Positions 688-31,610 of a stretch of 32,416 bases of DNA are shown piece by piece. Made by a program: the position numbers and the translations under genes. Under the pieces are notes generated by a model that was given only the letters and a program-made list of their open reading frames with translations, had not been told where the DNA came from and did no database searches. Position 1 is the first letter of the stretch. Each line of letters starts with the position of its first letter. The DNA is taken from the NCBI GenBank assembly GCA_900539845.1, contig UQDP01000020.1, forward strand, positions 1 to 32,416, given 5' to 3'. Source of the stretch: an uncultured Oscillospiraceae bacterium. GTDB taxonomy: Bacteria; Bacillota; Clostridia; Oscillospirales; Acutalibacteraceae.

Positions 688-1863
688 ATGTCAGAAAAAA
701 GAAGAGATAATAAAGGAAGAGTTCTCCAAAAAGGAGAAAGTCAAAGAAAAGACAATCGTTATCAGTTTCGCTATACCGATAATATGGGGAAGAGACGTAC
801 TATTTATTCTTCAGATTTAAATGACCTTAGAAAGAAAGAGAAAGAAGTTCGCAAATCTATTGAAAACGGCATTAATTATGCTGAAGGAAATATCACGGTT
901 TTGGAATTGGTAAAACGATATACCAGCTTGAAACAGGGTGTAAGATATAACACGAAAGTAGGATACAGTTCAGCTCTTAACATAATCGAAGATGAAGAGT
1001 TTGGACATAAAAAAGTAAGAGATGTAAAGATGTCTGACGCTATGCAGTGGCTAGTCAAGTTAAGTAACGGCGGCAAGGGATTCAGCTCAATAAGAAACAT
1101 AAGAGGTGTTGTTAAACCTGCGTTTCAAATGGCCGTCAAAGAGGATGTGATTTTAAAAAATCCTTTTGACTTTCCTCTTAAGGATGTTATTGTAGACAAT
1201 TCAAAAAAGCGTGATGCTTTAAACTCTCAACAGCAGAAGATCTGGATGAATTTTATTAAGAATGACAAGACTTACAGCAAATATTATGATGAGTTTTATA
1301 TACTGCTAAAAACGGGACTTCGAGTAAGCGAGTTTTGCGGGCTGACTAAAAAGGACATTAACTTTGAGGAAAAATATATAAATATAGATCATCAGCTCAG
1401 CAGGACCAAAGACGGAAAATATTATGTTGAAAAAACTAAAACCAATTCGGGTACCCGTAGAATTCCTTTAACAGATGATGTTGCAAAAAGCCTGAAGAAC
1501 ATTATAGAACGCAGAAATAATCCAAAAAAAGAAATGGTTGTAGATGGTTACAGCGAATTTCTGCTCCTTGACAAAAATCAAAATCCAAAGGTTGCGCTTC
1601 ACATTGAAAACGAGATGCGCTGGGCAATGAAAAAATATAAAAAGCTTCATCCCGACGTACCTCTGCCGAACGTAACACCTCATGTACTAAGACATACATA
1701 TTGCACCAATATGATAAAAATGAATACACCGCTCAAAGTTCTTCAGTGTTTAATGGGCCATTCAAGTATTGAAGTAACGAGCGATATTTACACTCATTTA
1801 GCTTCTGAGGATGTTAATAATGTGGTTCAGCAACTTTATAAAAAAGAAAATAATTGGGTTTAA
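688..1863 (+). CDS. int: Tyrosine integrase, Tn916/Tn1545 type
   Basis: A 391-residue site-specific recombinase. The N-terminal 60-70 residues resemble the arm-type DNA-binding domain of Tn916 Int (KGRVLQKGESQRKDNRYQFR, then GKRRTIYS). A SAM-like core-binding domain follows (about 68-160), then the catalytic domain. Visible catalytic residues are R212 (TGLRVSE), a lysine near 251 (KTKTNSGTRR), H332-x-x-R335 (HVLRHTYC), H358 (LMGHSS) and nucleophile Y368 (IYTHL). Length matches the family at about 400 aa. AAAGGAAG precedes the ATG. It should cut and rejoin element ends together with the Xis encoded just upstream. The gene appears intact. Confidence 0.95.
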   Translation: MSEKRRDNKGRVLQKGESQRKDNRYQFRYTDNMGKRRTIYSSDLNDLRKKEKEVRKSIENGINYAEGNITVLELVKRYTSLKQGVRYNTKVGYSSALNIIEDEEFGHKKVRDVKMSDAMQWLVKLSNGGKGFSSIRNIRGVVKPAFQMAVKEDVILKNPFDFPLKDVIVDNSKKRDALNSQQQKIWMNFIKNDKTYSKYYDEFYILLKTGLRVSEFCGLTKKDINFEEKYINIDHQLSRTKDGKYYVEKTKTNSGTRRIPLTDDVAKSLKNIIERRNNPKKEMVVDGYSEFLLLDKNQNPKVALHIENEMRWAMKKYKKLHPDVPLPNVTPHVLRHTYCTNMIKMNTPLKVLQCLMGHSSIEVTSDIYTHLASEDVNNVVQQLYKKENNWV

Positions 1864-4477: not shown

Positions 4478-6313
4478 ATGGCGGGAAAGTTTGAAATCAG
4501 CAAAAGTGCTGACGGCACTTTCAGCTTCGTCTTTAAGGATGAGGACAGGATATATGCCGAATCGCCCGTTTTTCAGAAGGAGGACGAGTGTAAGCGCGGA
4601 GTCAAGGCTGTAAAGAAGAACAGCCGCATGAAAGTGCAGAACGCGCTTCAGAACGAAGAGGAAAAAACAAATCCCAAGTATCTTGTTGAACCCGACGGGG
4701 ATAAGGTTAAATATACGCTCTTTCTTCAGACAGGCGCAGTTGCCTGCACAGGCAGCGCTGTCTCTGAGGAAGAGGCTCTTAAAAATATAGAATTCATAGG
4801 CAACAACGCGAATGCGGCTCCTATGGCTATGGCAGAAGTCGTGCTCTCGGAAAACGAGCTGCGACAGATTCGTGTGGACAAGCTCAGAGCGCTTCAGAGC
4901 GCAGGAAAAGACCCGTTTGAGATCACTACCGCTACCCAGACCCACGAAAGCGAACAGATCAAAAACGATTATGACGCGCTCGAGGGCAAGGACGTAACGA
5001 TCTGCGGCAGGATCATGACATGGCGCGATATGGGCAAGGCAAATTTCATAGACGTTCAGGATAAGATGGGCAGGATTCAGGTCTATGTTCGTATGAACGA
5101 TATAGGCGGGGAAGAATACGCCGAGTTCAAAAAATGGGATATCGGCGATATCGTTGAAGTGAACGGTTTTGTTTTTAAAACAAGAACGGGCGAGATCTCC
5201 GTTCATGCAAAAACGATCAGACTCCTTTCAAAGTCGCTTCTGCCTCTGCCGGAGAAGTTCCATGGACTCACGGACACAGATACAAGATACAGAAAACGCT
5301 ATCTTGATATGATCATGAATCCCGATGTAAAGGACGCGTTTGTAAAGCGTTCCAAAATCATTACTTCAATCAGAAATTATCTTGACAGCCACGGATTTAT
5401 CGAGGTCGAAACGCCGATGCTCAACACCATTCCCGGCGGAGCGGCGGCAAGACCTTTTATAACGCATCACAATTCGCTCAATTTGGATATGTATCTGCGC
5501 ATAGCCACGGAGCTTTATCTTAAAAGGCTTATCGTAGGCGGTATGGAACGCGTTTACGAGATCGGCAGAAACTTCAGAAACGAGGGTATGGACGTAAGGC
5601 ATAATCCTGAATTCACCTGCATTGAGTTGTATCAGGCATACACCGATTATCACGGAATGATGGATATTGCCGAGGAACTTGTCAGAAATGCCGCGCAGGA
5701 GGCGTGCGGCACACTGCACATCAATTACTGCGGCACGGATATAGACCTTGAAACGCCTTTTGCCAGAATGACGATGGTTGAGGCAGTCAGCAAATTCAGC
5801 GGCGTGGATTTTGCCGCGTTTATGTCAGACAATGAAAAAGCCGTTGCAATAGCAAAGGAAAAGGGCATAGAGGTTGAAAACGGCAAGGAGACTTGGGGAG
5901 ATGTGCTCAACTCCTTCTTTGAGGAATACGTTGAGAAGAATTTGGTTCAGCCAACGTTTATTATGGATTATCCCGTTGAGATCAGCCCTCTTACCAAGAG
6001 AAAGCCCGATTGCCCCGCGCTTACGGAAAGGTTCGAGCTTTTCATAGTCGGCGGCGAATACGGAAACGCGTATTCAGAGCTCAATGACCCGATCGATCAG
6101 ATGGAACGTTTTGAGGCGCAGATGAAACTGCGCGAGGCGGGCGACGACGAGGCGAATATGATAGATCACGACTTTGTTACCGCACTCGAGTACGGAATGC
6201 CGCCCACAGGCGGTCTCGGCATAGGAATAGACAGGCTTGTCATGCTGCTCACAAATTCGTACAGTATACGCGATGTTCTTCTGTTCCCCACAATGAAACC
6301 GTTGGATAAGTAA
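4478..6313 (+). CDS. lysS: Lysyl-tRNA synthetase (class II) with N-terminal YegP-like (DUF1508) domain
   Basis: A 611-residue protein in two parts. Residues 1 to about 112 hold two YegP/DUF1508-like repeats ([18 protein letters not shown] at 3-20 and a weaker copy at about 65-111). Residues from about 120 are a complete class II LysRS starting [18 protein letters not shown]. They include an OB-fold anticodon-binding domain (about 173-250), motif 1 around [12 protein letters not shown], motif 2 [15 protein letters not shown] (366-380) and motif 3 GGLGIGIDR (578-586). It attaches lysine to tRNA-Lys. Normal bacterial LysRS is about 500 aa, so the extra 110 residues are unusual. GAGG precedes ATG 4478. 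The in-frame ATGs at residues 116 and 118 lack a clear ribosome site, favouring a true fusion. Confidence 0.93.
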
Positions 6314-20085: not shown

Positions 20086-20090
20086 ATCAA

Positions 20091-20117
20091 AGAGCAGGTT
20101 TAACACCTGCTCTTTTT
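20091..20117 (+). terminator. Terminator of the glycan operon
   Basis: AGAGCAGGT (20091-20099), ttaac, ACCTGCTCT (20105-20113), then TTTTT. A perfect 9-bp stem with T-run right after the GPH symporter gene. Confidence 0.88.
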
Positions 20118-20250
20118 GTCGAAGTGATTTGGATTCGCTTATTATTAAAACCTTTTCAGCGGGTTTCTCCCGATCACCTGCGCCCTAACGGGCTTGACGC
20201 CCGGAAATTCGTTCGCAAGTTTAAGTTTTGTGTTTGTAAAAATAAAAAAA

Positions 20251-20280
20251 CAGGGTATATAAATATACCCTGCTCTTTTT
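20251..20280. terminator. Bidirectional terminator near the element edge
   Basis: CAGGGTATA (20251-20259), TAAA, TATACCCTG (20264-20272), then CTCTTTTT. On the - strand the stem is followed by TTTTTTTATTTTT, so it could be the terminator of a gene on that strand, such as a tRNA whose end abuts at 20280. The stretch 20118-20250 has no gene that I can support. Confidence 0.75.
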
Positions 20281-20397: not shown

Positions 20398-21729
20398 TTA
20401 GCTTATGAGGGTTAATTCCTTCATATATTTTTCCGCCTGCGCAAGTGCATCGTTTTCATAGCTTTCAAACACATCGCAATATGTATTTAAAGTGGTTTGA
20501 ATGTCCGAATGTCCTAATATCTTTGATAATACTTTTACAGGCATTCCGCTTTCAATGCATCGCGTAGCGAATGTGTGGCGGAGCATATGAGGGCTGAAAG
20601 GCTTTTCAGGTATTAAGGCTTTGAAATAATACTTTTTCTGATTGCGCTCCCAGTCAGACGGTGGATTCAGTCCGAGAAGTTTATATTCATCATTCTTCTT
20701 TTCGTAATAAGTATATTTTTTATATTTAATAGGCTTTTTCTTTTCACCAAGGGATTGATATTGAGTTGTGCAGTTTATAATATTATATTTGATTATGATA
20801 TGTTTAAAAGCTGAGTTAAGCTGTCCGGGGCTGTAAATATGATTGTTTTCATCATCATAGAAGAGCAGGTCAAGCGGATTTTCCTGCCTGATATCAAGAT
20901 AACTGCGCAGCAGGCTTTCACATGCGTGACTCAGGGGAACTGTTCTAATGCCGTTTTCAGTTTTCGTATCTTCACCAAGCTGTGGCTTATCATTTAAACC
21001 TTTTGTGATGGTTCTTCTGATTGTTATGCGTTTAAAGTTAAAATTGATATCCTTGGTTTTATCCAGTGCAAGCACTTCGCCTGAACGCATCCCGGTCATT
21101 AACATGAGTTGCAGAATGACACTGTACTTGTTTTTGGCTTCCGGACCTGTCAGCACTTCCGTCAATCTTCTCTGTTCATCAACTGTAAGCGAATAGACCT
21201 TTTTGGTTTTTCTTTTTGATTTCGGTCTTTTAATAAATTCCATCGGGTTTTTGCTTATCAAATTTTCAGATTGTGCATAACGAAATGCAGCTTTAAGCTG
21301 ACGGCAGATTTTTAACAAATATGAATTAGACCTGTTCAGGTTTTTATTTAAAAACAGAATGATGTCACGCTCTGTTATTGTTTGAATGGGCATTTTACCA
21401 ATAGCGTTTGATTCTATTATTTTCAGCGTATGCAGTTCACGACTGTAAGTGGAATCCTTAATCAAATTGAGCGTTTTATTTTTTTCAATTAAGAAAGATA
21501 TTATATCCTGAAGGCTGTCTTTGTTCTTTTCAATATATGTGCCCTTGCGTATTTGTTCTTTGAGTTCGGCAAACTTATTTTGAGCCGTTTTTAAATCCTT
21601 GTCGCTGACCTTTTTGCGGATCGGCTTATCATCAGTGGTATAACCGACCGTTACAACGCCATACCAACGCTTCTTTGCCTTATCGTAATAAAAAGAACCT
21701 TCGCCGTTAAATCGTGTTTTGTTTTTCAT
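20398..21729 (-). CDS. int: Tyrosine integrase of the second element
   Basis: A 443-residue site-specific recombinase. The N-terminus NGEGSFYYDKAKKRWYGVVTVG is the three-stranded arm-binding domain of many Firmicutes phage and ICE integrases. The core-binding domain spans about 70-170. Catalytic residues are R215 (TGMRSGE), K256 (DTKTENGIRT), H381-x-x-R384 (HMLRHTFATR), H407 (ILGHSD) and Y417 (NTYCDVF). An insertion of about 50 residues (about 323-372, rich in K and Y) lies between the lysine hairpin and the HxxR box, longer than usual. It is unlike the first integrase of the window. The gene points outward to the element edge; AAGGTG precedes the start. Confidence 0.95.
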   Translation of the reverse strand: MKNKTRFNGEGSFYYDKAKKRWYGVVTVGYTTDDKPIRKKVSDKDLKTAQNKFAELKEQIRKGTYIEKNKDSLQDIISFLIEKNKTLNLIKDSTYSRELHTLKIIESNAIGKMPIQTITERDIILFLNKNLNRSNSYLLKICRQLKAAFRYAQSENLISKNPMEFIKRPKSKRKTKKVYSLTVDEQRRLTEVLTGPEAKNKYSVILQLMLMTGMRSGEVLALDKTKDINFNFKRITIRRTITKGLNDKPQLGEDTKTENGIRTVPLSHACESLLRSYLDIRQENPLDLLFYDDENNHIYSPGQLNSAFKHIIIKYNIINCTTQYQSLGEKKKPIKYKKYTYYEKKNDEYKLLGLNPPSDWERNQKKYYFKALIPEKPFSPHMLRHTFATRCIESGMPVKVLSKILGHSDIQTTLNTYCDVFESYENDALAQAEKYMKELTLIS

Positions 21730-21878: not shown

Positions 21879-22805
21879 TCAATTAGAATAGTAAACATTT
21901 AGTATAGGAATGGTGTGTCCATTGTCGTCTTCAGTCAGATCTGCAACTGTGATTGCAATGATACCGTAGCTATCATCAATTTCAATAGCTTTCTTCGGAA
22001 GCTTACCGATATAATCAATTTTAGAAACTAAGTAATCTTCATTACCTGTTCTATCATTAAATTCAGTTTCAAATTCAAGTAATGAACCAATTTCAAGCGA
22101 TTCGATTTCAGACTGTTTATCATCGCTCGTACAAGCGGTTAATCTGCAAGAAATCTTTTTATATTTTGAGTCATAGTATTTATTATTATTCCGATAAAAT
22201 CCAAGGCGCAAAGAAGCATCAAGTGGATTAATCGATGCGCGGTTAAGTTCGCAAATGCACGGCCATTCGCGTCGATTCCAGTCCTGATACATAGTTACTA
22301 TATTGTTATTAGGAATGCTTGCAAACTTAGTACCATTGTAGTAAACATAGCCCTTTTCATCTAAAGTCAGTTTAAAATCATTATCTTGTTCTATTTGTTT
22401 AAGAACATTAACATCTATTTCATTAAGTGTTATAAAATAGTGATAAGCGAGACAGCAGTCATCGACTTTTTCAGGAAATTGGTATATATTTCGTGCACCA
22501 AATTCTTTTGGCTGGACTGGAGCAGTTTGGGGATTTTGATAAGTATAATTTTGTGATTGTATCGGATCGGTATTATAGTTTTGATCTTGCGGCATAACAG
22601 GGGCATAAGACTTATTTTTTGAAGAAAAAATCTGAATTAAAGATTTTATGATATCTATCAGCCAACCGATGCCGAAAATACCTCCAGTTAAAATATAGAG
22701 GATTCCTATCCCGATTTTTCCATCAATGAATTTATGAACGCCAAGTCCACCAAAAAAGAAAACGATTATAAAGTATACTATAGGATTTATATTTTTTGTA
22801 TTCAT
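21879..22805 (-). CDS. TM2-domain membrane protein of unknown function
   Basis: A 308-residue protein. Residues about 5-58 are a TM2 domain, two membrane helices joined by a short turn (FFFGGLGVHKFIDGKIGIG, then ILTGGIFGIGWLIDIIK). A Gln/Pro/Tyr-rich linker (about 65-105) follows, then a soluble domain of about 200 residues with many acidic patches that I do not recognise. TM2 domains occur in many bacterial envelope proteins of unknown role. It lies 100 bp downstream of the Ltp-repeat gene on the same strand and is probably in the same transcript. AAGGGG precedes the start. It may act with that protein at the membrane; this is inference. Confidence 0.75.
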   Translation of the reverse strand: MNTKNINPIVYFIIVFFFGGLGVHKFIDGKIGIGILYILTGGIFGIGWLIDIIKSLIQIFSSKNKSYAPVMPQDQNYNTDPIQSQNYTYQNPQTAPVQPKEFGARNIYQFPEKVDDCCLAYHYFITLNEIDVNVLKQIEQDNDFKLTLDEKGYVYYNGTKFASIPNNNIVTMYQDWNRREWPCICELNRASINPLDASLRLGFYRNNNKYYDSKYKKISCRLTACTSDDKQSEIESLEIGSLLEFETEFNDRTGNEDYLVSKIDYIGKLPKKAIEIDDSYGIIAITVADLTEDDNGHTIPILNVYYSN

Positions 22806-22905: not shown

Positions 22906-23805
22906 TTATTCATCAAGATGATCGATAGCGTAGTCTGCTTCTTCTTGTGTGAATTGACCGCCATAATCGGATGTGAGCTGATCTCTTATTGCCTCTCGTG
23001 ACATATGCATAGAATTTTGATATGTTTTAGCTTGTTCAAGCGCATTCTCTTTAAAATCAGCTATGACGTTGTCAACAGCATATTGTGCAGCATCTTCAGA
23101 AAACTGACCACCATATTCAGAAATGAGCTGATCATATATCGCTTGTTTTGACATGTGCATGGAATCGCTGTAAATCTGTGCACCTCTCAAAGCATTTTTA
23201 TATTCAATCGGAATATCAGGCTGGGTTTCTGCTTCGGTTGTATCTGGCTCTGTATTTTCTGTTACATAAGAGGGAGTTGTAATTTTAGATTCATTTTCAG
23301 AATCATTTGAACTCGGAGAATCGGAATTCAAAGCCGCCACTATTAAGATGATAAATAATGCTAAAATAACAGCAAAGAAAGCTAACACTTTATTAAGACA
23401 ACCTTTTCTTTCTCTCTTTTTATGCTGTTCTAAGCTGTCGTTAAATGAAACGGGAGTTACACCATCGTTAGTCTCATCGTTTGTAATCTTCGAATATACA
23501 AAATCTCTTAAAGCTTTTGCATCGTCAAGTCTATTCCTGTTAAACTTAATTGCATTCTGCGGCTGATCTGCTGTTCTCAAACTTCCGAGCATAGAGGTTC
23601 TGGCTGTGCAAAACTGAATATAGCCCTTACCGAGCCCAGACGGCTCTTTGAATTTCACTTCGATAATCTGATCGTAAAAAATCCGGGTCTCGCCGCGCAG
23701 CGCTTTGTGAATCCAAAGGTTATGATTGCCGCGGTTTATGGATATGTATTTATCGGTTATAATTACTTTTGTGCTTGGATTTTCAAAATAAATCTCGTTT
23801 TCCAC
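22906..23805 (-). CDS. Membrane-anchored protein with PH-like domain and two Ltp-type repeats
   Basis: A 299-residue protein. Residues 1-110 resemble a small bacterial PH-like/DUF4429-type beta domain (KVIITDKYISINRG, IIEVKFKEPSG). A basic stretch (125-138) and one membrane helix (139-158) follow, then a Ser/Thr/Glu linker. Two copies of the Ltp repeat follow (about 203-248 and 253-298, 50 residues apart), each with YxxSMHMSxxAIxDQLxSxYGGQF. Ltp repeats are known from the lipoprotein of phage TP-J34, which blocks DNA entry of other phages (superinfection exclusion). Here a helix replaces the lipid anchor. The start is GTG with AAAGGA 8 nt upstream. The phage-exclusion role is inferred. Confidence 0.82.
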   Translation of the reverse strand: MENEIYFENPSTKVIITDKYISINRGNHNLWIHKALRGETRIFYDQIIEVKFKEPSGLGKGYIQFCTARTSMLGSLRTADQPQNAIKFNRNRLDDAKALRDFVYSKITNDETNDGVTPVSFNDSLEQHKKRERKGCLNKVLAFFAVILALFIILIVAALNSDSPSSNDSENESKITTPSYVTENTEPDTTEAETQPDIPIEYKNALRGAQIYSDSMHMSKQAIYDQLISEYGGQFSEDAAQYAVDNVIADFKENALEQAKTYQNSMHMSREAIRDQLTSDYGGQFTQEEADYAIDHLDE

Positions 23806-24120: not shown

Positions 24121-24288
24121 ATGAGTACAATGACTTACAAATACTATGTATCACTTATTAATAAAATAACAGAGTTATCTGATGCGGAGTTTATTTCTCT
24201 TCTGAATGAGAGTTCTTTTTTATTGAATCAACAATATCATTCAAAAGTTTCAGCTGAGTATCATCAAGCTGGGAAATCGATGAAATAA
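24121..24288 (+). CDS. Small protein of 55 residues, antisense to the repressor 3' end
   Basis: The protein starts MSTMTYKYYVSLINKITELS and has 55 residues, mostly helical and polar. I do not recognise a family. ATG 24121 is chosen because AAAGGAG sits 9 nt upstream; an in-frame ATG at 24091 lies inside the operator region and lacks a site. Its last 98 bp overlap, on the opposite strand, the end of the repressor gene (24191-24526), so its transcription could also lower repressor output by antisense or collision. The promoter and the 20-bp palindrome at 24071-24090 sit directly upstream. Confidence 0.6.
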   Translation: MSTMTYKYYVSLINKITELSDAEFISLLNESSFLLNQQYHSKVSAEYHQAGKSMK

Positions 24289-24526
24289 ATTCTTGTTTTT
24301 CTTTACTGATTTTAATGTCTCGCTCAGTTTCATCAAAAGCCCAAAAATCTAATGATGTATTAAAAAAGGAGGCAAGTTTTTTCAAAGTGCTAAGTCTTAA
24401 GTCGTCAAAACCTTTTTTATACCAACCATCAATTGTAGTATAAGGAATACCACAAGCTTTTGAAAGTGTACTTTTATTTAGCCCGTTTTTATTCATCAAA
24501 TAATTTAATTTATCAATAAAGTTCAT
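24191..24526 (-). CDS. XRE-family repressor
   Basis: A 111-residue protein with an N-terminal helix-turn-helix of the Cro/CI type: LNYLMNKNGLNKSTLSKACG, then IPYTTIDGWYKKG, then LRLSTLKKLASFFNTSLDF. The remaining 40 residues (SKEKQEFISSISQLDDTQLK) are a short helical dimerisation tail; no peptidase domain, so it is not a LexA-like self-cleaving repressor. I chose ATG 24526 with AGGTG upstream; a GTG at 24535 overlaps that site. It is divergent from the small HTH gene at 24694, with operators in between, the layout of a lysogeny switch. Induction may use an antirepressor or a protease. Confidence 0.88.
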   Translation of the reverse strand: MNFIDKLNYLMNKNGLNKSTLSKACGIPYTTIDGWYKKGFDDLRLSTLKKLASFFNTSLDFWAFDETERDIKISKEKQEFISSISQLDDTQLKLLNDIVDSIKKNSHSEEK

Positions 24527-24559
24527 CCGTATCACCTAATGAATTTAATTTGTGATTTT

Positions 24560-24675
24560 ATAATAACACGAAGATAATTAAATAGCAAGAAAAAAATTAC
24601 CCCTTTACGTAAATTTTTATTGACAAATTACGCAAAGGGGTATATAATTGCCATGAAAGTTACCCGTAGGGGTAA
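24560..24675. promoter_or_regulatory. Divergent promoters with three operator-like repeats
   Basis: Rightward: TTGACA (24620-24625), 17 bp, TATAAT (24643-24648), exact consensus. Leftward, toward the repressor: TTGCTA (24583-24588 reversed), 17 bp, TATTAT (24560-24565 reversed). Operator candidates are TTACCCCTTTACGTAA (24597-24612) and its inverted partner TTACGCAAAGGGGTAT (24628-24643), matching at 14 of 16 positions, and the palindrome TTACCC-GTAG-GGGTAA (24660-24675). They flank the rightward -35 and follow its start, as expected for repressor control. Confidence 0.82.
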
Positions 24676-26686: not shown

Positions 26687-27073
26687 ATGCGGAAGAAAAC
26701 AGAATTGACGGAGCAGCAGGCTGTGATCGAATGGTGCGAGTGGATGTCTGCGCAGTATCCGGAACTGAAAACGATATATCATATCACAAACGAGGGCAAG
26801 CGCAGTAAATCACAGGGCGCCGCTCTTGTGGCTGCCGGACTGAAAAAGGGTGTTCCGGATCTGTGCCTGCCCATATCCCGCGGCGGATATAACGCGCTGT
26901 ATATCGAGATGAAAAAGAGCAGGAAAGAGCATTGTACCAAGGAGCAGCAGGAATTTCAAATACTGCTCGCGGAGCAGGGTAATTTCTGTTGTGTGGCGCA
27001 CGGCTTTGATGAGGTTAAGGAATATATTGAGCGATATATAAAAATGCCGAAAGGCAGGGTTGTTTATGACTAA
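26687..27073 (+). CDS. VRR-NUC nuclease-domain protein
   Basis: A 128-residue VRR-NUC protein, a stand-alone PD-(D/E)xK-type nuclease fold. Seen are NEGKRS (35-40), the catalytic GVPDL (55-59, D58), and YIEMK (72-76, E74 and K76), followed by a glutamine-bearing helix EQQEFQ. Such single-domain VRR-NUC proteins are common in phages, near replication genes, and are thought to process branched DNA like Holliday-junction resolvases. Length is typical. AGGAGG precedes the start and the stop overlaps the next gene by 8 nt. Confidence 0.9.
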   Translation: MRKKTELTEQQAVIEWCEWMSAQYPELKTIYHITNEGKRSKSQGAALVAAGLKKGVPDLCLPISRGGYNALYIEMKKSRKEHCTKEQQEFQILLAEQGNFCCVAHGFDEVKEYIERYIKMPKGRVVYD

Positions 27074-27362
27074 AGAAGAAGCTGACCTCGCCCAGCGCTA
27101 TAACGTGGGCGTGATGATAAAAGAGCCGGAGTATGAGGGTAAAATGCTTTTTATCAAAGAGTTCATACGCTGGAGAGATCCGAGACTGAATAATCAGTTC
27201 GCCTATTCGCTTGTTTTGTGGAACAAGAACGAGCCAAGGCACAGCCTTGTTCAGATTGATATCGGGAAAGTGGAGATCATGACCGGCTTTAAGCAGTTTA
27301 TTGATAGCAAACTGAAAGAACGCGCCGATAAACAGGCGGTGGAAAGTTTAAAAAGGAGTTAA
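27066..27362 (+). CDS. Hypothetical early protein, 98 residues
   Basis: MTKEEADLAQRYNVGVMIKE starts this 98-residue protein, with a middle of mixed beta-strands (KMLFIKEFIRWRDPRLNNQ) and a helical basic end. I do not recognise it. I chose ATG 27066, inside the end of the previous gene, preceded by AGGCAGGG; a TTG at 27060 is possible but less likely. It continues the tightly packed early operon. Confidence 0.65.
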   Translation: MTKEEADLAQRYNVGVMIKEPEYEGKMLFIKEFIRWRDPRLNNQFAYSLVLWNKNEPRHSLVQIDIGKVEIMTGFKQFIDSKLKERADKQAVESLKRS

Positions 27363-27366
27363 AGCT

Positions 27367-27684
27367 ATGACAGAGAAAATCAAGCAGGCTATCGCCAAAG
27401 TAGACAGCGAGGCTGAAAAGATCAATACGGATATGGCTAAGGTCATATCCTCTCATATTATAAGCACCTATCTTAAATCCGACAGCAACGCCGATTGTGT
27501 CCTGAATCAAAAGAAAACGCTTCAGGACTGTCTTGGGAAAATCACAGAAAAAGCAAGAGGTTTAGCGCAGAATAATGCCGCAATGGTTGAGGATATAACG
27601 GTTTACGGCTGGGTTGAGGAATATTACGGCTTTGCAGTCGACTGCACGGAAAATAAGATCATAGATCTGCTTGATTTTGTGTGA
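27367..27684 (+). CDS. PcfK-like protein (AcrIIA9-related family)
   Basis: A 105-residue acidic protein with the PcfK pattern: SHIISTYLKSDSNADCVLNQ, then KTLQDCLGKITEKAR, then VYGWVEEYYGF. PcfK-like proteins are encoded next to PcfJ on conjugative elements and phages, and a branch of this family has been described as a Cas9 inhibitor (AcrIIA9). Here the PcfJ-like gene follows after 9 bp. Whether this member inhibits Cas9 cannot be told from sequence; the family call rests on motif pattern plus the PcfJ neighbour. GGAGTT lies before the ATG. Confidence 0.72.
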   Translation: MTEKIKQAIAKVDSEAEKINTDMAKVISSHIISTYLKSDSNADCVLNQKKTLQDCLGKITEKARGLAQNNAAMVEDITVYGWVEEYYGFAVDCTENKIIDLLDFV

Positions 27685-27693
27685 GGTAAACGA

Positions 27694-29337
27694 ATGGGAA
27701 ACAGAAAAAACCAGCTCACACAAAAAGAAGCGGACAAGATCTTTCAAAGGCTGAAAAAGAAAGCGCAGCCCTCCGAGAAACTTAAAAAATATGTCCACAA
27801 CACACTGCTTGCGGATCACCATTATATGTTTCAGTTCAAGGCGGGTCGGCAGAGATTCGGCCATTGCTCCGCTTGTGGAAGTGATTTCAATCTTGAAACG
27901 AAAACGATGCGAACCGTAACGCCGGATGATGAAATACGGTTGTGTGCAAAACACGGAGAAAAAGTGTGCTGCCCGGTCTGCGGCAGAACCGTTACAAAAC
28001 GGTATGCCGGATATCCTCACAAGAAGATATATGCTATGGCCGGTGAGTGCAGAGTAGAAAAAAACGGCGCTCTTGTCATATACACATATACATTCAGCTA
28101 TGACTATAACCGCAGCTTCAGAGCAAAGCAGGAGTGGTGCCTGGAGCAGATCTGCTACTTTGATATCCGCAAGTATTTTCAATTACTGTACGGGTATGGA
28201 GTCCGGGCATACACAGGAGATAAATATTCAAACGAATTGAACTTCACAGCCACGCAGTCAGTTGTTGATATTTTCGACTATTCAAAATATTTTAAAGAAG
28301 GCTTTCACCTTATCGGTTTTAAAGAGGCGCTTGAGAAAAGCAATTTGAAATACAGCTGTGCGGATAGGCTGTTGAAATTAAATGCATCCTTTCAGCTGGT
28401 AAGTTATCTTAAATTCTATTGTTCTTATCCGGTGATAACGGAAAGGCTTGTGAAAGAAGGACATGCCGGTATTTTAATGAGTTATATAAACGGCGGAGCA
28501 AGAGGTCTGTTCAAATTCAATAAGCAGACGGTACCGGAATTTTTCGGCTTGGATAAAGAATACTATAACTTTCTGCGCGGTCTGAGCGTTCAGCCTGTAA
28601 ACAGCAGTCAGCTGCGAACACTTCAATTTATGAAAAGAAACGGCATACCTGCTTTAGAAGAATATTTTGATTTTGTGTCAGCAGCTTTGAACTATAAAAA
28701 AGAGCTAGAGCTACTGCTTAAATTCAGAAGCTTCAGGAAATGTGTGTCATACGTAAAGAAACAGAGTCTGCTCTGCGGCTGTGCTTATAACTACGCGACA
28801 AATGTAACGCATAACTTTTTTATGACCTACAGCGACTATGTTTCGGCAGGAAAGAGATTAAACTACGACTTCACAAGTGAAAGCGTCGTATTCCCTCAGA
28901 ATATCAGTATCGCGCATCAGGAGCAGATCGAGTTTGAGAGACAGCAGGAGCTTGAAGAGGAAAAGCGGAAATACAAGAACTTTGGCAAGCGGCTGAAGCA
29001 GCTTAAGAAGAAGTATACCTTTTCAGACGGAAAGTTTCTGATACGACCGGCGGAGAGCTCAGACGAACTGCTTGCAGAGGGTAACGAGCTGCATCACTGT
29101 GTATACAGCTGTTACAAGGACAGTTACATGAAAGGTGACACGGATATCCTGTTTATCCGAAACTGTCAGGAGCCGGACAAGCCGTTTTACACCTTAGAAT
29201 ACAGAAACGGGCATATCGTTCAGTGCAGGACTTATCACAATGAAGAGCGTACCCCGGAGATTTCTGCCTTTCTGGATGATTGGCAAAGCTTTCTGAAAAC
29301 CAATAAAGCACAGCATAAAAAGCGGGAGGTTGCATAA
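27694..29337 (+). CDS. PcfJ-like protein
   Basis: A 547-residue protein of the PcfJ type. Residues 55-100 hold a zinc-finger-like cluster (C58, C61, C84, C93, C96: HCSACG, CAKH, CPVCG). The middle is helical. The C-terminal domain has FLIRPAESS (about 447-455) followed by LAEGNELHHCVYSCY (about 460-474) and PFYTLEYRNGHIVQCR, the hallmark of PcfJ. PcfJ was named from pCF10 and its activity is unknown; the H-H-C motif hints at catalysis or metal binding. It is preceded by the PcfK-like gene, as is usual, and its stop overlaps the next start by 1 nt. Confidence 0.9.
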   Translation: MGNRKNQLTQKEADKIFQRLKKKAQPSEKLKKYVHNTLLADHHYMFQFKAGRQRFGHCSACGSDFNLETKTMRTVTPDDEIRLCAKHGEKVCCPVCGRTVTKRYAGYPHKKIYAMAGECRVEKNGALVIYTYTFSYDYNRSFRAKQEWCLEQICYFDIRKYFQLLYGYGVRAYTGDKYSNELNFTATQSVVDIFDYSKYFKEGFHLIGFKEALEKSNLKYSCADRLLKLNASFQLVSYLKFYCSYPVITERLVKEGHAGILMSYINGGARGLFKFNKQTVPEFFGLDKEYYNFLRGLSVQPVNSSQLRTLQFMKRNGIPALEEYFDFVSAALNYKKELELLLKFRSFRKCVSYVKKQSLLCGCAYNYATNVTHNFFMTYSDYVSAGKRLNYDFTSESVVFPQNISIAHQEQIEFERQQELEEEKRKYKNFGKRLKQLKKKYTFSDGKFLIRPAESSDELLAEGNELHHCVYSCYKDSYMKGDTDILFIRNCQEPDKPFYTLEYRNGHIVQCRTYHNEERTPEISAFLDDWQSFLKTNKAQHKKREVA

Positions 29338-30299
29338 TGAATAACGAACTTACAAGAGACAGAAATTCAGAAGCCTTTTATTTACATAACAGAATCCTTG
29401 CCAACGGTAAGACGGTACAGACTGCACTTATCGATATGTGCAGGGACCTTAAGATGATGAAAGACAAGGAGCTTTTCAGAGAACTCGGATTTGATGATTT
29501 TGAGCAGTATGCGGAGCAGGCCTGCGGGATCAAACGCAGGCAGGCTTATTCATATATAGCAGCATATGAAAAGCTCGGCGAGAGCTTTTTGAAAGAAAAC
29601 GCTGCGCTCGGCATAACCAAGCTGGAGCTCATATCACAGATCTCATCCTATGAAAGAGAGGAATTTCTTGAGGAAACGGATGTTGAAAACGTCTCTACCC
29701 GGGAATTAAAGCAGCAGGTAGATGAGTTTAAAAATCGTGTTGAACAGCTCACGCTTGATCTGACGGAAAAGGAAAGCATCAATCATGAGCTTGAAGATCA
29801 GATTAAGGCGCTGGAAGCCAACCTCAACAGCACGCCTATAACTGCGGTCACTGATGAAACGGCAGTAGAAAATGCTGTTAAGGAAGCTGTTGCCAAGGCG
29901 GAGGAAACAGCTAAAGAAAAGATTGCCGATCTCAAAAAGCAGCTTTTTGATGAAAAGAAAAAGAGAAAAGCGCAGAAGGACGAAACCGAGGCTACTGTTA
30001 AAGCGGCTAAGGAAAAGGTTTTAAAAGAGGCAAATGAAAAGATAGATAAAATGCTTGCTGAAAAAAACGATCTTGAGGAAAAGCTTGGCAAAGCGCTGAA
30101 ATCCGCTAAGGCTGCAAATGCCGATGAGGATCTCACTGCGGTGCGTTTTCTGTTTACGCAATTGCAATCGACTGCAAGCAGGATCACAGGTCATCTTGTG
30201 AAGCTGAAAGATAAAAACCCGGAGCAGGCGGAAAAACTGAAAACCGTAATGTGTAAAACGCTTTTCAAGATATCGTCAACTATGGAGGATGAAATATGA
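29337..30299 (+). CDS. ParB/DUF3102-like HTH protein with long coiled coil
   Basis: A 320-residue protein. The N-terminal 100 residues have a helix-turn-helix resembling ParB/DUF3102 phage proteins (FRELGFDDFEQYAEQACGIK, then RRQAYSYIAAYEKLGE). Residues 120-250 are a continuous charged coiled coil. The C-terminus is a small helical domain. Such proteins are annotated as partition- or replication-associated in phages, but roles are mostly untested. The start is a 1-nt overlap with PcfJ (TAATG), and the stop overlaps the next start by 4 nt. Confidence 0.7.
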   Translation: MNNELTRDRNSEAFYLHNRILANGKTVQTALIDMCRDLKMMKDKELFRELGFDDFEQYAEQACGIKRRQAYSYIAAYEKLGESFLKENAALGITKLELISQISSYEREEFLEETDVENVSTRELKQQVDEFKNRVEQLTLDLTEKESINHELEDQIKALEANLNSTPITAVTDETAVENAVKEAVAKAEETAKEKIADLKKQLFDEKKKRKAQKDETEATVKAAKEKVLKEANEKIDKMLAEKNDLEEKLGKALKSAKAANADEDLTAVRFLFTQLQSTASRITGHLVKLKDKNPEQAEKLKTVMCKTLFKISSTMEDEI

Positions 30300-30709: not shown

Positions 30710-30993
30710 CAACGCAGGAAGCAATTGACATCTTATATAAATCAGTTCCAGAGGCTATTAGTGAGAATTATGAATTGCCTGCACTAATTGGCAGAGTTAA
30801 AGAAGCAATAGAAAAGCAGATACCTAAAGAACCGTTGAAAATTAAAGCGAGCAAAGATGTAAATTTAGGTGCAGCAATATTTAAAGCAGGTTCGACTGTT
30901 TATAAATGTTCTCATTGTGAAAGTTTTATACTTCGTTCAAGCAAATATTGTAATAAATGCGGACAGGCTTTAGATTGGAGGGATGAAAAATGA
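30706..30993 (+). CDS. Zinc-ribbon protein, 95 residues
   Basis: An N-terminal helical part (EAIDILYKSVPEAISENYEL) is followed by a C-terminal zinc ribbon CSHC...CNKCG (two CxxC pairs, about residues 68-87). Small phage proteins of this layout are common but not assigned. It overlaps both neighbours by 4 nt (ATGA), so it is tightly coupled in the operon. Confidence 0.72.
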   Translation: MTTQEAIDILYKSVPEAISENYELPALIGRVKEAIEKQIPKEPLKIKASKDVNLGAAIFKAGSTVYKCSHCESFILRSSKYCNKCGQALDWRDEK

Positions 30994-31610
30994 ATAGTGA
31001 AAGACTAACAATGCACGCGCTTGACGGTGTTTGTTTAATTGTCAATGCCGACAATGAGCAAGAAGCGCAGCAGGAATTTATGGATAAGTTTAAGAAGGCT
31101 TGCAATAAACTCGCTGAGTTAGAGGATAAACTTGAAAATGGAGTGCTTATTGAACTGCCTTGCAGGGTTGGAGATAGATTATATCGTCCTGTTGTTGATT
31201 ACATTAGCGAAGAAACTGTAATGATGATTACTCAGCGTTTTTTAAAAAACGAATCAGTTGCAACATTGCATACAGAGTATTCAACTTATGATTTAAAGGA
31301 AATGGGTGATCTATATTTTCTCACTAAATCCGAAGCAGAACAGAAATTAAAGGAGTTGAAAGAAACGGCTAAATTAAAACCGTGTCCGTTTTGCGGTGCC
31401 AAAGCGACCATAATAACCAATGCACACGAATTAAAAAAATGTGCGAATTTTGATTACGATAATTGTCCTTGTAATGAATATGAAGGCGGTTCTTGTAGCT
31501 ATTATACCATTGTTTGTAGTGTAAATAATGATGGCTGTGGTGCATCTTCAGGCTACTATCCAACAATAGAGCAAGCCATCAATGCTTGGAATAGGAGAAC
31601 TGAGAAATGA
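30990..31610 (+). CDS. Lar-like restriction-alleviation domain protein with N-terminal extension
   Basis: A 206-residue protein. The C-terminal part begins KPCPFCGAKA (about 130-139) and ends AINAWNRR, with intervening cysteines (CANFDYDNCPCN, GGCSY-like GGSCSYY, CSVNNDGCG). This is the pattern of Lar/restriction-alleviation zinc-ribbon proteins of phages, which relieve type I restriction of incoming DNA. The N-terminal part (FMDKFKKACNKLAELEDKLE, then LPCRVGDRLYRPV) is a separate module often found alone in phage genomes. The join contains EAQQE, like the end of the preceding 66-residue protein. A fusion of two small phage genes is likely. Confidence 0.78.
   Translation: MNSERLTMHALDGVCLIVNADNEQEAQQEFMDKFKKACNKLAELEDKLENGVLIELPCRVGDRLYRPVVDYISEETVMMITQRFLKNESVATLHTEYSTYDLKEMGDLYFLTKSEAEQKLKELKETAKLKPCPFCGAKATIITNAHELKKCANFDYDNCPCNEYEGGSCSYYTIVCSVNNDGCGASSGYYPTIEQAINAWNRRTEK

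Follow-up and report, generated by a model that had tools for sequence, protein, structure and literature searches.

The window analyzed here, a stretch of DNA 32,416 nt in length, contains part of a phage-like element that is cut by the window end. Leftward from a divergent promoter region, the genes of its lysogeny module are arranged in the order repressor, candidate gene, TM2 gene, and integrase, with the candidate encoding a putative superinfection-exclusion protein (Table 1). The repressor also matches an RstR-family model below the cut-off of that model, and the C-terminal part of the TM2 protein matches no Pfam family above cut-off. A consensus sigma-70 promoter points toward the early genes and away from the cassette. 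Promoter-pattern matches within the cassette itself were rejected as meaningful signals, given that 34 were found and 23.1 were expected. Between a host transporter gene and the integrase lie two terminator-like hairpins (20089-20115 and 20244-20279) that have the stretch AAAGAGCAGG in common, and the left attachment site may be located there.

Table 1. Features of the element in the window, and recombinases near domain X in other loci
Feature	Position	Strand	Basis or remark
Tyrosine integrase of the element	20398..21729	(-)	PF00589, E 8.7e-28
TM2-domain protein, 308 aa, between candidate and integrase	21879..22805	(-)	PF05154, E 2.8e-13
PH-helix-Ltp protein, candidate superinfection-exclusion protein, 299 aa	22906..23805	(-)	
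Ltp repeat 2, residues 250-297	22915..23058	(-)	PF07553 best stretch, 4eqq alignment
Ltp repeat 1, residues about 200-247	23065..23208	(-)	PF07553 (two stretches), 4eqq alignment
Ser/Thr/acid-rich outer linker, residues 163-197	23215..23319	(-)	4/35 identical to P0010
Membrane helix, residues 140-158, basic stretch before	23332..23388	(-)	Hydropathy script, predicted helix, sequence
Inner PH-fold domain, residues 1-110	23476..23805	(-)	
Repressor of Cro/C1 type, upstream in the cassette	24191..24535	(-)	PF13443, E 1.6e-9; phrog_8, E 1.3e-12
Consensus sigma-70 promoter, 12/12	24620..24648	(+)	Consensus match only
Early-type genes: VRR_NUC, PcfK-like (sub-threshold), PcfJ-like, DUF3102	26687..30299	(+)	
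Lar-like restriction-alleviation protein with extra N-terminal part, among early genes	30990-31610	(+)	PF14354
Recombinase, locus L062	56 bases from X		
Recombinase, locus L064	141 bases from X		
Recombinase, locus L060	676 bases from X		One gene between
Recombinase, locus L059	954 bases from X		bPH_1 gene and short frames between

The sequence-only reading of the candidate gene had described a PH-like domain, one membrane helix, a linker, and two Ltp repeats, and this architecture is confirmed. The Pfam model PF07553 matches the protein in two stretches with a score of 159.2 bits, against a curated cut-off of 23.2, and the repeats match the fold of a solved Ltp repeat pair (PDB 4eqq). In a predicted model of medium confidence, the inner domain forms a seven-strand barrel with a capping C-terminal helix, the arrangement that characterizes the PH-domain superfamily. 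This fold is common to bacterial PH domains such as bPH_1 (PF08000) and DUF4429 (PF14472), although the score of the candidate lies below the Pfam cut-off. For DUF4429, the candidate reaches 17.7 of the 25 bits needed and its relative P0027 scores 21.5 bits. Residues 161-195, which span most of the linker, have pLDDT values below 50 in the structure model. On a positive-inside reading of the sequence, with a basic stretch preceding the helix, the repeats would lie outside the membrane. The Ltp pair has a net charge of -12, compared with -12 in P0008 and -10 in P0009, although a negative net charge is frequent among surface proteins.

Among the closest known systems is Ltp of the Streptococcus thermophilus phage TP-J34 (PDB 4eqq, PF07553), a lipoprotein of 142 amino acids (PMC4737114, excerpt). 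Its gene lies in a lysogeny module, and exclusion is conferred by its repeat domain, whose negatively charged residues are suggested to contact the positive end of the tape measure (PMC3952083, excerpt). Escape mutants of phage P008 map to the tape measure, and the same paper states that direct binding was not demonstrated (PMC4737114). Unlike TP-J34 Ltp, the candidate has no lipobox that can be found by pattern and carries a membrane helix and an inner PH-fold domain in its place. A similar layout of inner part, helix, and two Ltp repeats is present in PHROG 4980 and in gp22 of phiRg507T2_3 (MT980837.1), an isolated temperate phage of R. gnavus. The gp22 protein is labelled “superinfection exclusion protein,” and its gene lies between the repressor gene gp23 and an integrase gene, so that the order of repressor, Ltp gene, and integrase is common to both elements. 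They differ in that the inner part is zinc-ribbon-like in gp22 (E 7e-4, below the Pfam cut-off) and a PH fold in the candidate, and in that the window has a TM2 gene ahead of the integrase. The fold, the position in a lysogeny cassette, and the similar gene order in phiRg507T2_3 all support the earlier proposal of a prophage-carried, Ltp-type exclusion protein.

No structural or packaging genes are present before the window end. We therefore speak cautiously of a “temperate-phage-like element,” whose status as a phage is unproven. The names PcfJ and PcfK come from a conjugative plasmid. The PcfJ- and PcfK-like genes that follow the cassette, together with the lack of a visible virion gene in the window, would therefore also be compatible with an integrative conjugative or mobilizable element whose protein keeps out another copy that enters by conjugation. 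We consider this explanation improbable. The PcfJ-like protein of the window matches 117 of 50,697 phage records, and the gut phage contig MT839207.1 carries relatives of it and of the DUF3102 protein next to each other, ordered as in the window. Furthermore, the ten window proteins scanned with Pfam, a set that leaves some early frames outside, include no relaxase or transfer gene, and the Ltp protein that has been tested acts on phage infection.

A search for Ltp relatives returned 1149 proteins at E <= 0.001, of which the best 120 were examined. By means of a rough script, 118 collected proteins with a repeat match (window protein included) were sorted by N-terminus into those in which a domain or an extended segment precedes the helix (52) and those with a helix near the N-terminus (36), a lipobox-like pattern (20), or none of these by threshold (10). 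The sorting rules are crude, and by eye several proteins in the last group resemble plain lipoproteins or proteins with short helices. Parts that precede the helix in other Ltp proteins include zinc-ribbon-like domains, TM2 (P0096), and others. Together with gp22, these varied N-termini indicate that the combination of inner part and helix is well established among Ltp proteins, and the window protein is its PH variant. The different anchor and added inside domain claimed by the sequence-only reading are present, but they do not set the protein apart as unusual. We also rejected the view that the PH-helix-Ltp arrangement is a one-off. The layout of P0039 is similar but distant and has three repeats, and its hhalign score of 24.8 (probability 21%), versus at most 17.7 in shuffles, is suggestive only. 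In P0096, TM2 is fused to Ltp repeats, and the window cassette has a separate TM2 gene.

Sixty-three of the 50,697 records in the phage collection match the candidate, and 0 cover 80% of it. A tyrosine recombinase lies about 100 bases away from the Ltp gene in both viral contigs found to carry one (2/2). A recombinase was detected in the flank of one of eight bacterial Ltp loci, for which some flanks stop at contig ends and the recombinase profiles are weak. With none detected in the other seven, Ltp repeats are not restricted to prophages. These chromosomal Ltp-repeat proteins away from detected recombinases would suit a prophage-encoded surface protein that benefits the host by wall or matrix binding or by adhesion rather than by exclusion. 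Such a role seems unlikely for the candidate, however, because phage DNA entry is blocked both by its nearest relative of solved structure and by the family member that has been tested, and because the gene lies between a repressor and an integrase, as does the Ltp gene in phiRg507T2_3.

When the base of the candidate (residues 1-165) was used as a query, only 10 database relatives were recovered. Ltp repeats are present in four of them (P0006-P0009), and the other six (P0010, P0021, P0027, and P0126-P0128) carry a different C-terminal domain, which we call X. Some X-bearing relatives are 96-99% identical to the candidate in the PH domain, and the same base occurs with Ltp or X at 98% identity over residues 1-165. 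The linker is where the outer module of the candidate begins to diverge from P0010. Between P0001 (Ltp) and P0010 (X), identical positions number 109/110 in the PH domain, 29/29 in the stretch before the helix, and 21/23 in the helix, versus 4/35 in the linker, after which the domains are unlike. A second pair, P0008 (Ltp) and P0021 (X), gives 108/110, 23/29, and 19/23 for the same three segments, followed by 9/35 in the linker and again by unlike domains. P0010 and P0021 are identical at 82/100 positions of X and at only 79/110 positions of the PH domain. Thus, in relatives of the candidate, the outer part has been swapped on a nearly identical PH-helix base, a result beyond the view of the sequence-only reading.

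On a tree of the base, the Ltp and X labels change four times, and the well-supported branches alone force at least two changes. When the labels were shuffled at random, 382 of 500 trials required as few changes as observed or fewer, so the outer domain does not track the base. A PHROG “nuclease” match of P0027 was rejected as a sign of a nuclease, since it covers mainly the helix and linker. Among the listed titles and abstract openings on Ltp and superinfection exclusion, drawn from a collection with few subscription-journal papers and preprints, no description of a PH-Ltp protein or of an outer-domain exchange was found.

Domain X is about 115 amino acids long, acidic (net charge between -10 and -17 in four proteins for which it was calculated), and predicted to be a helical bundle. 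Its structure model is confident, with pLDDT block means of 97-99 over residues 61-140, and has no strong structural match. Among the proteins scanned, no Pfam family covers X with a score above cut-off. When residues 166-300 of P0010 served as the search query, X was also found on the short helix proteins P0129-P0134 and behind DUF4236 in P0135, and an X profile revealed X followed by three Ltp repeats in one chain in P0088 and P0029. The same profile matches lipoprotein-like frames in genomes G430 and G432, which belong to the family of G168, the sampled genome closest to the window by lysyl-tRNA synthetase. Overall, X is rare. A class search matched 28 of 391 genomes, mostly through the helix and linker, and confirmed X in one of the 30 loci fetched.

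Flanks were read for six X loci (L059-L064), whose sources are two genomes and one viral contig. A site-specific recombinase lies within 1 kb of X in four of the six, and none was detected in L061, where X is at a contig end, or in L063. L060 and L062 both include a terminase large subunit and are related prophages, with terminases 95% identical and X domains 89% identical. Because of this relatedness and the few sources, the six loci represent about three independent cases. On the viral contig (L064), the gene order is a small HTH protein (DUF739), a repressor with HTH and S24-peptidase domains, an X lipoprotein, and a serine recombinase, with each neighbour of X confirmed by Pfam. Here the X lipoprotein stands in the ltp position. 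A bPH_1 gene (PF08000, E 3e-37) and an X lipoprotein gene are separated by 12 bases in L059, so PH and X are neighbours in this locus and fused in relatives of the window protein. We regard X as a candidate second exclusion domain.

Several minor features of these loci were also observed. Genes for bPH_1, the X lipoprotein, and a DUF4236 protein stand in a row near a serine recombinase (L059:7576-9511), and DUF4236 is fused to X in P0135. Between the integrase and the X lipoprotein of L060 (7562-8068, minus strand) is a gene for a 169-amino acid protein that looks PH-like by eye, has a glycine-rich insert, and gives only a weak, sub-threshold C19orf12-like match in Pfam. Two adjoining membrane proteins with weak X-like domains are encoded in genome G428 (L097:7242-9021, minus strand), about 1.9 kb from a tyrosine recombinase. 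This locus and L096, another weaker X-like locus for which no recombinase was found, were excluded from the X count.

It is likely, in our view, that the candidate serves a prophage in superinfection exclusion and that it consists of a conserved base, made up of PH domain and helix, and an outer effector that can be exchanged. The gene is probably expressed in the prophage state, as its location between repressor and integrase suggests. The PH-fold domain would remain on the cytoplasmic side, against the inner membrane face, the single helix would span the membrane, and the disordered acidic linker would keep the acidic Ltp pair just outside. Homology and gene position point to a block of DNA entry. 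On injection by a long-tailed phage, the Ltp pair could bind the tape-measure protein on its way out of the tail. By analogy with TP-J34 Ltp, such binding would stall channel formation, so that the phage DNA stays out. Most likely, the PH domain would hold the protein where injection takes place by attaching to a lipid patch or to a membrane protein of the host. An X domain in place of the repeats would probably act in the same way on other phages.

A docking or membrane-placing role has been proposed for PH-bearing homologues of SNIPE, a membrane-bound nuclease defence that comes into contact with tape-measure proteins. The N-terminal part that targets SNIPE homologues to the membrane is variable and in some of them contains PH-like domains (PMC13190303, excerpt). 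For this reason, our guess for the PH domain of the candidate is docking rather than signalling. The candidate would resemble SNIPE in being a membrane-tied defence at the place of injection, in contact with the tape measure, and in its varied N-termini. However, SNIPE cleaves DNA by its nuclease and uses DUF4041, whereas neither domain is among the Pfam matches of the candidate at E 0.1, and the effector of the candidate would be outside. PADLOC defence models matched the candidate with 0 families at E 0.1.

The earlier suggestion that the inner domain could sense or signal is unsupported, because the cassette has no gene that resembles a signalling partner and because docking or membrane placing fits better. 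Exclusion through a true PH sensor, in which tail contact is passed via the helix to trigger an inner response, would make use of the one helix between the binding part outside and an inner domain that is strongly conserved (65/110 PH positions identical even between P0001 and P0126), but it is very unlikely given that the cassette shows no responder such as a kinase or nuclease, that TP-J34 Ltp works as a bare lipoprotein (PMC3952083, excerpt), and that the inner parts of other kinds on Ltp proteins (zinc-ribbon-like, TM2) leave no common signal path visible.

The lysogen of phiRg507T2/3, which should carry gp22, counts against a broad exclusion effect. It admits two of the three other phages listed, since phiRgPS6 and phiRg507T2/2 formed plaques and phiRg519T2 did not, with text and table disagreeing on phiRg507T2/2; the authors ascribed its immunity to the repressor (PMC10072058, excerpt). 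It is possible, though somewhat doubtful, that Clostridia prophages possess a modular device in which the conserved PH domain and helix bring the protein to where injection occurs and a swap between Ltp and X changes which phages are excluded. Within that modular reading, X would be a new family of injection-blocking domains, used also as a lipoprotein at the place of ltp and in series with Ltp.

Exclusion proteins encoded by prophages of Gram-positive bacteria are understood in few cases, and only few have been described (PMC4737114, excerpt). The layout of inner part, helix, and Ltp repeats was already known, and the interest of the present case lies in the swapped outer domain and in X, a candidate for a second domain with exclusion activity. 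This natural exchange, with one base carrying either Ltp repeats or X, hints that such shields are assembled from swappable pieces. If X does exclude phages, then a new effector family will have been reached by following a known one. Likewise, if the modular reading is true, lysogens could change which phages they exclude while the base remains unchanged.

Two observations were made elsewhere in the window. A second tyrosine integrase of 391 amino acids (688-1863, plus strand) is followed by phosphatase-like and Nudix-like genes and is perhaps the end of another integrated element. The lysyl-tRNA synthetase frame (4478-6313, plus strand) has about 125 additional N-terminal residues beyond the family model, which reflect either a wrong start or an added domain.
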